This document shows, piece by piece, positions 10,536 to 61,225 of a stretch of DNA of 64,000 nucleotides. The number at the start of each line of letters is the position of its first letter. Position 1 is the stretch's first letter. The DNA comes from Bacteroidales bacterium (GTDB taxonomy: Bacteria > Bacteroidota > Bacteroidia > Bacteroidales > Marinilabiliaceae). The notes under the pieces are model-generated. The model did not search any database. It was not told the DNA's origin and saw only the letters and a program-made list of their open reading frames with translations. The translations under genes and the position numbers were made by a program. The stretch lies in the NCBI GenBank assembly GCA_024401335.1, contig JAKSLH010000002.1:180232-244231 (forward strand). Direction: 5' to 3'.

Positions 10536-11402
10536 TTATAAAATCATCTTTTCGATAGGCATTACAAGTATGCCTTCTGCGCCAAGCTGCTTGAGCTTGC
10601 CAATGATTTCCCAGAAATGCTTTTCTTCAAGAACCGATGCCAATGATGACCAACCTTCTGTTTCGAGCTTGGTTACTGTTGGCGCCTTCATGCCTGGAAG
10701 AAGTTCAGTAGCGGCAGCAATCTTGTCGTTCGGAATGTTGAGGACGACATATTTCTTGCCTTCTGCGTTCTTGTATGAGTCGAAGCGGAAGAGGAGCTCG
10801 TTGAGGATTTCCTTCTTCTCGGTGCATATGCCCTTGTTGCCAATGAGGACTGCCTCGCTCTTCATGACAATCTCTACCTCCTTGAGGTTGTTGCTGACGA
10901 GGGTAGAGCCTGAACTTACGATGTCAAATATGCAGTCTGCCAAACCAATGCCTGGGGCAATCTCTACAGAACCAGTAATTACGTGAATGTCACTCTTTAT
11001 GCCATTCTTGTCAAGGAACTTCTTGAGAATGCCTGGGTATGAAGTGGCAATCTTCTTGCCATCGAACCACTTGAGTCCCATCTGCTCGTATTCTGGGACC
11101 TTGGCGTTTGGAATAGCGAGTGATATACGGCATTTGCTGAAGTCAAGACGCTTGATGATCTCTGCCTCTTCCTGACGCTCCTCAAATTCATTTTCGCCTA
11201 CAATACCGACATCTGCAATGCCGCTTGCTACGGCCTGTGGAATATCGTCATCACGCAGATAGAGAATCTCTACTGGGAAGTTCTTTGCTGGCACAAGAAG
11301 TGTGCGCTTGCTTGATTCTATCTTGATGCTCGACTCTGAGAGCATTGTCATTGTCTCCTCAAAGAGACGTCCTTTTGCCTGTACTGCAATTCTAAGTAAC
11401 AT
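10536..11402 (-). CDS. hisG: ATP phosphoribosyltransferase, long form
   Basis: 288-aa first enzyme of histidine synthesis, condensing ATP and PRPP. It is the long, HisZ-independent form: the catalytic lobes include GIADVGIVGENEF and the PRPP loop DIVSSGSTLVSNNL, and the C-terminal about 75 residues (ending GILVMPIEKMIL) are the ACT-like regulatory domain that binds histidine in homologues. The ATG at 11402 lies 30 bp after the attenuator terminator, so expression depends on read-through of it. Double control, by feedback and attenuation, is therefore likely. Confidence 0.96.
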   Translation of the reverse strand: MLLRIAVQAKGRLFEETMTMLSESSIKIESSKRTLLVPAKNFPVEILYLRDDDIPQAVASGIADVGIVGENEFEERQEEAEIIKRLDFSKCRISLAIPNAKVPEYEQMGLKWFDGKKIATSYPGILKKFLDKNGIKSDIHVITGSVEIAPGIGLADCIFDIVSSGSTLVSNNLKEVEIVMKSEAVLIGNKGICTEKKEILNELLFRFDSYKNAEGKKYVVLNIPNDKIAAATELLPGMKAPTVTKLETEGWSSLASVLEEKHFWEIIGKLKQLGAEGILVMPIEKMIL

Positions 11403-59936: not shown

Positions 59937-59959
59937 CTTTATTTATTGAAAAACAAAAA

Positions 59960-59991
59960 CAGAGGAGATATAAAAAGCTATACCCCCTCTG
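59960..59991 (-). terminator. Terminator of trpD
   Basis: CAGAGG/CCTCTG stem extended by G-U and A-T pairs on the minus strand, followed by TTTTTG; 31 bp after the trpD stop. It makes trpD a single-gene transcript. Confidence 0.75.
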
Positions 59992-60021
59992 CTCACGAAA
60001 ATTAAGTCTCTTACCTGTCGC

Positions 60022-61023
60022 TTACGAGTTGAGTGCAACGTATTTCTTCAACACCTCAAGCGCCTTCTTCGATTCAAGCGATTCACGTGCTATCGCTATA
60101 CACTCTTCTAGCGTCTTCTCTGGCTCGATGATGTTTATCGCAAACGCCGCATTGGCTACTACCACGTCGGCCTGGCTCTTTGTTCCCTTGCCTTCGAGGA
60201 TGTTGTCAAACACCTTCTTCGCATCATCTACTGTCTGATACGACATGCCACTGAGGTCAGCTACATTGGCGTTCTCGAAGCCAAGGTCCGATGGTCGGTA
60301 TACCTTCTCCTCTTTCTTGGTCGTTACCTTGAAGTCTGATGTGAGCGATATCTCATCATACCCGTCGGTAGAATTGACAATGCCATAGCCTATGCCGAGC
60401 TTCTGATATACATTGCTGTAGAGACGCATCTGGTTGAGGTTGGCTACACCGAGCATCTGATACGCCGGACGACATGGGTTGACAATCGGACCAAGAAGGT
60501 TGAAGCATGTTGGTACCTTTAGCGCCTTGCGTATTGGAGCCACAAACTTCATCGCTCTGGCAAACAATGGCGCATGCAGATATACAAAGCCTGTCTCCTC
60601 GATGCTCTTCTTGAGCTTGTCGTTGTCGTTGGTGAACTTCACACCATGGCCTTCAATGACGTTGCTGGCTCCACTTACCGATGTCGCAGCATAGTTGCCG
60701 TGCTTCGCTACCTTATAGCCTGCTCCGGCGACTACGAAACATGCACATGTCGAGATGTTGAAGGTGTTCTTGCCGTCACCTCCTGTTCCTACTATGTCTA
60801 TTGGCTTATATGGCGACAAATCTACTGGTACACCTGTCTTCAATATGCCACTGCGCAAACCTAACAACTCATCTACCGAGATGCCTCGCATCTGCAATCC
60901 CATGATGAATGCTGTAATCTGTTCCTGAGGATACGCCTCTTTCGTGATGTTGATGAGAATCTCTTCTGTCTCTGCTGCCGTAAGCTCGTCATGAGCTATG
61001 AGGCGTGAAAGGATGTTCTGCAT
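60022..61023 (-). CDS. trpD: Anthranilate phosphoribosyltransferase
   Basis: 333 aa. Transfers ribose phosphate from PRPP to anthranilate. Seen: IDIVGTGGDGKNTFNIST (PRPP loop), KHGNYAATSVSGASNVIEGHG and the conserved Arg region FVAPIRKAL. Full length. It is preceded by a Trp leader peptide and attenuator (61060-61176) and closed by its own terminator (59960-59991), so it is expressed alone, away from trpC, trpF and trpBA. No TrpG domain is fused. Confidence 0.96.
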   Translation of the reverse strand: MQNILSRLIAHDELTAAETEEILINITKEAYPQEQITAFIMGLQMRGISVDELLGLRSGILKTGVPVDLSPYKPIDIVGTGGDGKNTFNISTCACFVVAGAGYKVAKHGNYAATSVSGASNVIEGHGVKFTNDNDKLKKSIEETGFVYLHAPLFARAMKFVAPIRKALKVPTCFNLLGPIVNPCRPAYQMLGVANLNQMRLYSNVYQKLGIGYGIVNSTDGYDEISLTSDFKVTTKKEEKVYRPSDLGFENANVADLSGMSYQTVDDAKKVFDNILEGKGTKSQADVVVANAAFAINIIEPEKTLEECIAIARESLESKKALEVLKKYVALNS

Positions 61024-61059
61024 AGTATTATGTTTTTATATTTTCCTCTATAAAAATTA

Positions 61060-61086
61060 AAGGCCCACCGGAGTTCGGCAGGCCTT
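61060..61086 (-). terminator. trp attenuator terminator
   Basis: Minus strand AAGGCCTGCCG pairs with CGGTGGGCCTT-type arm (11 bp, two G-U) around an AACTC loop, then TTAATTTTT. The segment ACTCCGGT (61067-61074) in the loop and 3' arm is perfectly complementary to ACCGGAGT (61122-61129) in the last codons of the leader peptide, an alternative antiterminator pairing. Confidence 0.88.
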
Positions 61087-61119
61087 GTTTATCGTTGTTT
61101 TGCTACAATAGGGCAGTGC

Positions 61120-61176
61120 TTACTCCGGTTTAATCGTGTAAGGTCGCCACCACCATATGTTGCTAATAACTTTCAT
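61120..61176 (-). CDS. trpL: trp leader peptide with three consecutive Trp codons
   Basis: 18-codon ORF MKVISNIWWWRPYTIKPE followed by TAA, 97 bp upstream of trpD and followed by an intrinsic terminator. Three TGG codons in a row are the hallmark of Trp attenuation. The 8-nt antiterminator arm ACCGGAGT overlaps its last codons and stop: a ribosome stalled on the TGG run would leave it free to pair with the terminator, a ribosome at the stop codon would cover it. ORF and pairing are seen; mechanism is inferred. Confidence 0.93.
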   Translation of the reverse strand: MKVISNIWWWRPYTIKPE

Positions 61177-61193
61177 TTCTTAATTATTGTTTG

Positions 61194-61225
61194 CAAATAT
61201 GAAGAGTTTTTTTGAAAAATCCAAC
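61194..61225 (-). promoter_or_regulatory. Promoter of the trp leader-trpD transcript
   Basis: CATATTTG (61194-61201; one mismatch to TAnnTTTG) with GTTG 20 bp upstream (61222-61225) on the minus strand; start expected near 61188, 12 nt before the leader ATG. It lies close to the end of the GH3 gene. Confidence 0.65.

Follow-up and report, generated by a model that had tools for sequence, protein, structure and literature searches.

A tryptophan leader upstream of trpD in a Bacteroidales genome with a likely antiterminator for the terminator loop and 3' arm

Introduction

In the usual account of attenuation by leader peptides, the antiterminator takes up the strand of the terminator that is made first, its 5' side. 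Here we describe a tryptophan (Trp) leader upstream of trpD, the gene for anthranilate phosphoribosyltransferase, in a Bacteroidales bacterium of the Marinilabiliaceae (assembly GCA_024401335.1, contig JAKSLH010000002.1, forward-strand positions 180,232 to 244,231), whose antiterminator likely pairs instead with the terminator loop and the top of the 3' arm. The whole stretch analysed, 64,000 nucleotides (nt) long, is called the window, and coordinates without a contig name refer to it.

The Bacteroid-trp family (Rfam RF01692; Weinberg et al. 2010, PMC2864571) shares with the window's leader a Trp-codon leader peptide, a hairpin built on the Trp-codon strand (P1) and the start of the terminator, although the leader falls under the family's gathering score and the model holds neither the loop/3'-arm target nor an antiterminator. 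Escherichia coli trpL (PMC1183508) likewise has a Trp-codon leader peptide, a hairpin of the 1:2 kind, and an antiterminator and terminator that exclude each other. Its antiterminator takes the terminator 5' arm, whereas the leaders of the window's family appear to take the loop and 3' arm; counted from the first base of the stop codon, its arm begins 5 nt downstream, whereas here the stop is often within or after the arm. Elf and Ehrenberg 2005, the same source, propose that basal read-through depends on where the stop codon lies. The authors of PMC2965389 (2010) state, in the part that concerns us, that before their own Firmicutes case they knew of no leader-peptide system outside the Proteobacteria and Actinobacteria, ermC excepted.

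A topology with the loop and 3' arm as target was not found in the titles and abstract openings, among the matches listed, of work on leader-peptide attenuation (Bacteroidetes, Flavobacterium, Bacteroides, Prevotella) or on terminator-loop antiterminators. Lopatovskaya et al. 2010, which PMC4833913 cites, reportedly may predict attenuators in Bacteroidetes. What is new relative to the literature covered is that the target consists of loop and 3' arm, that it covaries with its arm across families, and that histidine (His) leaders of the same family differ from this.

The leader upstream of trpD

The elements of the leader and the gene that it would control are as follows.

61120..61176, minus strand: leader open reading frame (ORF) MKVISNIWWWRPYTIKPE with its stop, ATG to TAA, 18 sense codons
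61147..61155, minus strand: regulatory Trp codons TGG TGG TGG, read in the leader ORF
61122..61129, minus strand: likely antiterminator arm ACCGGAGT, exact complement of ACTCCGGT, supported by covariation
61103..61121 (extent approximate), minus strand: post-arm strand of the Trp-codon hairpin P1, from the ribosome-free fold and covariation over 95 leaders
61060..61086, minus strand: intrinsic terminator stem-loop followed by TAATTTTTAT, with 11 pairs, a 5-nt loop and -18.3 kcal/mol
61067..61074, minus strand: target ACTCCGGT, four terminator-loop bases and the top four bases of the 3' arm
60022..61023, minus strand: trpD (PF00591 and PF02885), presumably the gene controlled

An initial annotation of this stretch had described the 18-codon leader with its three Trp codons and terminator, and an 8-nt complementarity between the end of the leader ORF and the terminator loop and 3' arm; both are present, and the complementarity is exact. 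The stretch 61050-61118 folds better than any of 200 shuffles (z -3.42). As in an E. coli-type attenuator, the gene is preceded by a short leader ORF in which the cognate codons stand in tandem, and by an intrinsic terminator. We consider it quite probable that transcription of trpD is attenuated here by way of the ribosome and turned on when charged tRNA-Trp runs short. The leader is real and probably a functional Trp attenuator, related to a known family that has received little study.

Covariation of arm and target

Leaders for comparison came from a finder that requires tandem TGG codons in an ORF starting with ATG, together with a terminator; it yielded 141 distinct leaders, the window's included. 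The finder misses some leaders, such as the trpE leader of genome G014, which is plain by eye. A second candidate at locus L211, probably spurious, was kept among the 141, and three peptides judged not to be leaders, one of them antisense to the L044 leader, were excluded from scoring. Each leader was scored by the best uninterrupted pairing between the stretch after its Trp codons and either the terminator loop plus 3' arm or the terminator 5' arm, and the control consisted of pairs permuted between loci and given the identical best-match search.

The window's leader scores 21.0 on the loop and 3' side and 10.0 on the 5' side. Its 8-nt match is, taken alone, only moderately unlikely (103 of 20,000 shuffles of the arm window reach the same score), and the case therefore rests on the comparison across leaders. 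Among 70 distinct leaders, the window's included, a set assembled before any grouping, own pairs average 17.28 on the loop and 3' side against 12.55 for permuted pairs (z 13.6), a value reached in none of 20,000 permutations, and the terminator 5' arm gives no own-over-permuted signal (z -1.0). These 70 leaders hold 52 distinct arm/target pairs, for example ACCGAGAGTT/AACTCTCGGT, GTCGTAAG/CTTACGAC, TCGTGAGT/ACTCACGA and TCGGGGT/ACCCCGG, so that arm and target do covary among relatives, a check that had been proposed along with the initial annotation.

With 125 leaders from eight groups, again including the window's, the loop and 3' side gives z 17.3, and thinning to 57 and 26 leaders leaves z 11.1 and 7.2, each reached in none of 10,000 permutations. 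The 5' arm, which is the target in E. coli, gives no signal in the same sets (z -1.9, and -1.6 and -0.7 after thinning). Within the window's own family alone, 45 leaders give z 10.6 on the loop and 3' side and 17 thinned leaders z 5.7, each likewise with none of 10,000 permutations, and no signal on the 5' arm for the 45 (z -0.5). A fixed criterion applied leader by leader places 88 of the 125 in the loop type. Taken together with the exact match in the window, this makes the octamer pair ACCGGAGT/ACTCCGGT the likely antiterminator of the trpD leader.

Leaders with the textbook arrangement

The same scoring gives E. coli K-12 trpL 15.0 on the 5' arm and 9.5 on the loop and 3' side. Sixteen leaders from four other families (f4, f25, f5 and f6) show z 4.6 on the 5' arm and -1.9 on the loop and 3' side; by the fixed criterion 14 are of the 5'-arm type and two of neither. 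These four families were labelled textbook only after their scores had been seen, and the tests on 70 leaders and on the 45 of the window's family are independent of that grouping.

In the window's family itself, 41 distinct His leader candidates give z 6.1 on the 5' arm and 1.2 on the loop and 3' side. Thinned to 16 they give 4.3 and -0.5, and thinned to seven, 2.4 (204 of 10,000 permutations) and -0.2. The sample consists of 51 hisG stretches (30 loci, 20 more, and the window), 39 of which yielded at least one candidate; candidates count by stretch and not by individual placement relative to hisG, and candidate L275 was left out. Since E. coli trpL, the four families and the His leaders all show 5'-arm pairing, the test detects either topology, and trp and his leaders thus differ in topology within the window's family. 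The two kinds are alike in their design of leader peptide and terminator; as a group, however, the His leaders have an arm that pairs with the terminator 5' arm, unlike the window's trp leader.

Position of the arm, the stop codon and P1

Geometry was counted on the 95 of the 125 leaders that score at least 15. The arm keeps a steady distance from the Trp codons, beginning a median 21 nt past the first base of the last TGG (5-95% range 19.7-26), and the window's arm, ACCGGAGT, begins 20 nt past it and ends on the first base of the stop codon. With the last Trp codon in the A site and the ribosome's edge assumed at +13 nt, none of the 95 arms is covered, although this is weak evidence, as the search window already began at +9. 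A ribosome at the stop, with an assumed footprint of -17 to +13, covers 82 of the 95 arms.

The position of the stop itself varies: 58 arms overlap it, 25 are wholly inside the ORF and 12 wholly past it. The initial annotation had made much of the arm being inside the leader coding sequence. In the window the arm does reach only the first stop base, but the comparison does not support this as the key feature, for in the trpE leader of the same genome the identical arm begins directly behind the stop codon, and more than half of the 95 overlap it. In 83 of the 95 the stop is in or after the arm, a likeness to the model of Elf and Ehrenberg 2005 (PMC1183508), although that theory concerns E. coli-type 2:3 antiterminators and its relevant passages name no Bacteroidota case. 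In L093, L101, L098 and L081 the frame passes well beyond the arm, and a ribosome at the stop would leave the arm uncovered; these long frames may be sequence errors or a relaxed design.

The hairpin P1, formed by the Trp-codon strand and the strand after the arm, also covaries (z 13.9 for the 95; z 8.9 for 42 thinned leaders). When the window's leader is folded without a ribosome, 61116-61109 is the partner of the Trp codons, and P1 takes up half of the eight arm bases, leaving the other four unpaired. As in E. coli, then, the codon strand forms a hairpin with a downstream strand, seen here in both covariation and folds. The statement that the leader works without a separate region 2 comes down to wording: the arm is the equivalent of region 2, and a hairpin like 1:2 exists.

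Computed folds and a proposed switch

In the window's leader, with a ribosome on any of the three Trp codons, the antiterminator is computed at -23.9 and the terminator at -23.4; with no ribosome the values are -31.8 and -40.1, and a ribosome at the stop covers the arm. Under stalling, stepwise emergence of the RNA gives the antiterminator as best fold for exposed ends from 61071 to 61062, and at 61061 the terminator takes over; when the ribosome is at the stop, no step has the antiterminator. Over the 95 leaders, stalling moves the balance a median 10.8 kcal/mol toward the antiterminator. If the RNA is exposed no further than the last target base, the antiterminator wins in 92 of the 95 leaders when a ribosome occupies the last Trp codon and in 42 of the 95 when none is present.

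We propose the following switch. With ample Trp, the ribosome would reach the stop and cover the arm (61129-61122), the terminator (61086-61060) would fold, and transcription would end before trpD. When Trp is scarce, the ribosome would stall at the TGG codons (61155-61147) and open P1, leaving the arm, 20 nt downstream, free to capture the loop and upper 3' arm of the terminator as these emerge from RNA polymerase, ahead of stem closure. There is no linker between the target and the lower 3' arm, and the arm helix and the terminator stem therefore could not both form in full, so that the polymerase would read through. With no ribosome, part of the arm would be held by P1 and the terminator favoured.

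We lean toward a wider reading in which many Bacteroidota trp operons use a second attenuation topology: a strand that often carries the stop codon catches the terminator from the loop and 3' side as these emerge and excludes the stem, while the his leaders of the same family keep the textbook 5' side, the two designs coexisting. If this is true, the choice would fall within the final few nucleotides ahead of release, and the kinetic race would be tighter. A loop/3'-arm antiterminator would also complete RF01692, whose model ends ahead of the switch. Trp and His leaders of differing topology in one family would be natural matched pairs for side-by-side comparison, and the trpD leader (stop at the arm's end) and trpE leader (stop before the arm) would be such a pair for the stop-position idea of Elf and Ehrenberg.

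Alternative explanations

Several observations weigh against a switch of this kind. At equilibrium the terminator is still lower in most leaders despite a stalled ribosome, by a median 5.9 kcal/mol over the 95, and the switch, if it works, must therefore be kinetic; the short antiterminator helix would have to hold against branch migration. In the window's leader the antiterminator also leads when there is no ribosome, though more briefly (exposed ends 61070-61064), and stalled and ribosome-free RNA are thus less clearly set apart there by the computed race than by the final energies. Thirteen of the 95 arms fall outside the footprint of a ribosome at the stop, and the ORF continues 17-31 nt beyond the arm in L033, L048, L081, L093, L098 and L101. 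By the fixed criterion nine of the 125 leaders fit the 5' arm better and 28 fit neither side; L142 and L148, both from the window's genus, and L026 score higher on the 5' arm. RNAalifold on the MAFFT alignment A1 recovers the terminator only, which is expected if the antiterminator is its alternative and the arms are misaligned.

The obvious rival is a textbook E. coli-type attenuator, in which an upstream strand pairs with the terminator 5' arm and the match to the loop and 3' arm is incidental. Such an arrangement is what the four other families, the His leaders of the same family and E. coli show, and L142 and L148, of the window's genus, score better on the 5' arm. The window's leader is far from it, with 10.0 on the 5' side against 21.0, as is its family, with z -0.5 against 10.6, and we consider this explanation unlikely. 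As a description of the window's trp family the textbook 5'-arm antiterminator was dropped, there being no own-over-swapped signal in the sets scored (z -1.9 to -0.5); the pairing of antiterminator strand and terminator 5' arm that marks the E. coli type gives no group signal by the same values (z -0.5 for 45 leaders, -1.9 for 125), nine individual leaders of the 125 excepted.

The pairing could instead be a loop-loop contact between the apical loop of P1 and the terminator loop, one that stabilises the terminator or pauses the polymerase, with no antitermination by the arm. By eye, the arm of L029 is within the P1 apical loop, four of the window's eight arm bases are unpaired without a ribosome, and every well-scoring target is partly terminator loop. 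About half of a typical target, though, is in the 3' arm and not in the loop, the other four arm bases in the window are paired inside P1, and such a contact alone would not link Trp codons to read-through; we regard it as highly improbable. It is also very unlikely that the leader is a relic, a copy or remnant from the splitting of the operon that has ceased to regulate trpD. The positions of trpC, trpF and trpB behind terminator-like hairpins and inserted genes, and a score below the Rfam cut-off, would fit a relic, but none of the elements (arm, target, Trp codons, terminator) has been lost or broken, and the same 8-nt pair recurs in the trpD leader of G014 and the trpE leaders of G000 (the window's genome) and G009.

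Relatives and the Rfam family

The best Rfam match to the leader is RF01692, at 34.3 bits (E 0.026 in 401 bases, full length 1-131), where the gathering score is 49 bits. The trpE leader of the same genome, at 39.8 bits, also stays below it, and the class-level relative L170 reaches 88.5 bits. The leader has the family's Trp-codon peptide and P1 upstream of a trp gene, and looks like a divergent relative of RF01692. The model stops at GGCUUGUC in the terminator 5' arm, and for this reason holds neither the target nor an antiterminator. At E <= 0.1 with strict filters, RF01692 matches 30 of 71 genomes of the window's family. A T-box or another riboswitch was rejected, there being no Rfam match at gathering anywhere in the window.

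A covariance model built from 42 leaders (R1) finds a match of at least 50 bits in every one of 15 genomes of the genus, and matches 212 of 395 sampled genomes of the phylum (E <= 0.001), many of the weak matches being probably plain terminators; from these phylum-wide matches 29 new loci and 40 fetched stretches were inspected. Weak matches at G008:C9 and G000:C31 have no Trp leader, and one at G014:C178 is a His leader. In the window's own genome R1 matches above 31 bits occur only before trpE and trpD.

The first trp match within 1.5 kb downstream of the 141 leaders is trpE in 92, trpB in 38, trpD in nine, and trpC and trpF in one each; 36 of the 141 were gathered through TrpD and are not independent for this count, their sources including Bacteroides, Phocaeicola, Tannerella and Coprobacter. 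Leaders L142 and L148 (G001 and G004, window's genus) have arms that suit the terminator 5' arm (TCTCGG/CCGAGA) over the loop side, possibly a recent topology switch inside the genus. Another leader, L164 (G005:C48), encodes MTNTNKYWWWWQILS; a gene distantly like trpB (31% identity) is close by and may be a second trpB under regulation.

The split operon

Control of trpD alone had been proposed. By anatomy trpD does stand alone, given the hairpins and the split operon, but it is not the only gene so controlled: a second leader, G000:C30:44748-44880 (L017, L021), with the peptide MKMNTNIWWWRPSL and the same arm/target octamer, precedes trpE-trpG in the same genome. Downstream, trpC, trpF and trpB follow trpD in the same direction with inserted genes, and two terminator-like hairpins are found between trpD and trpC on the minus strand, at 58763-58736 and in the place listed here.

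59957..59994, minus strand: terminator-like hairpin directly after trpD, between trpD and trpC, from a hairpin scan

The scan gave six terminator-like sites on both strands of 4 kb against 3.2 from shuffles, so the hairpins are no proof of the isolation of trpD. Two small minus-strand ORFs between trpD and trpC (59274-58786 and 58656-58303), with no Pfam match, are part of its separation.

Relatives show several arrangements of the same genes. G014 has leader-trpD-X-trpC-F-B and a separate trpE leader, G008 leader-trpE-G-D, G009 leader-trpE-G-x-D, and G003 and G001 the unsplit leader-trpEGDCFBA. From these orders and the matches in its own genome, the trpD leader is part of a split operon, both parts of which kept or gained a leader. 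The identical 8-nt pair is shared by the trpD leaders of the window and G014 and the trpE leaders of G000 and G009, and in a TrpE+G+D tree G014 falls outside G000+G009+G008 (support 0.80). The trpD leaders of G000 and G014 may be two independent acquisitions or one with later loss, as tree and leader identities fit either.

A leader before trpD is not unique to these genomes, trpD being the first gene in seven of the eight f4 leaders; f4 is mostly of the 5'-arm type (six of eight). In G005 two Trp leaders (L055, 2106 and 5903) identical at 132 of 137 positions precede trpB and trpE of one locus, and would be a recent duplication or conversion.

Flanking elements and a His leader in the window

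Two further features flank the leader.

61194..61201, minus strand: promoter-like CATATTTG, position read from the sequence, one mismatch to TAnnTTTG of Bacteroidota
63542-61260, minus strand: glycoside hydrolase family 3 gene, the leader being between this gene and trpD

We take TAnnTTTG to be the consensus of the Bacteroidota promoter element, to which CATATTTG is not an exact match. Of the 140 leaders whose upstream sequence is long enough, 74 carry an exact TANNTTTG in the 60 nt before the leader ATG; the rate in shuffles is 4.3%. A sigma-70 promoter scan around the leader gave one site against 1.3 expected from shuffles.

The window also contains a His attenuator (11552-11434, minus strand) before hisG (PF01634 match at 10782-11255), with the leader MNALHHHHHHHTDD and a terminator at 11463-11434. 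Its GGGCGG, right behind the stop codon, narrowly favours the terminator 5' arm as pairing partner (13.0 against 12.0). Forty further distinct His candidates were found near hisG across the window's family.
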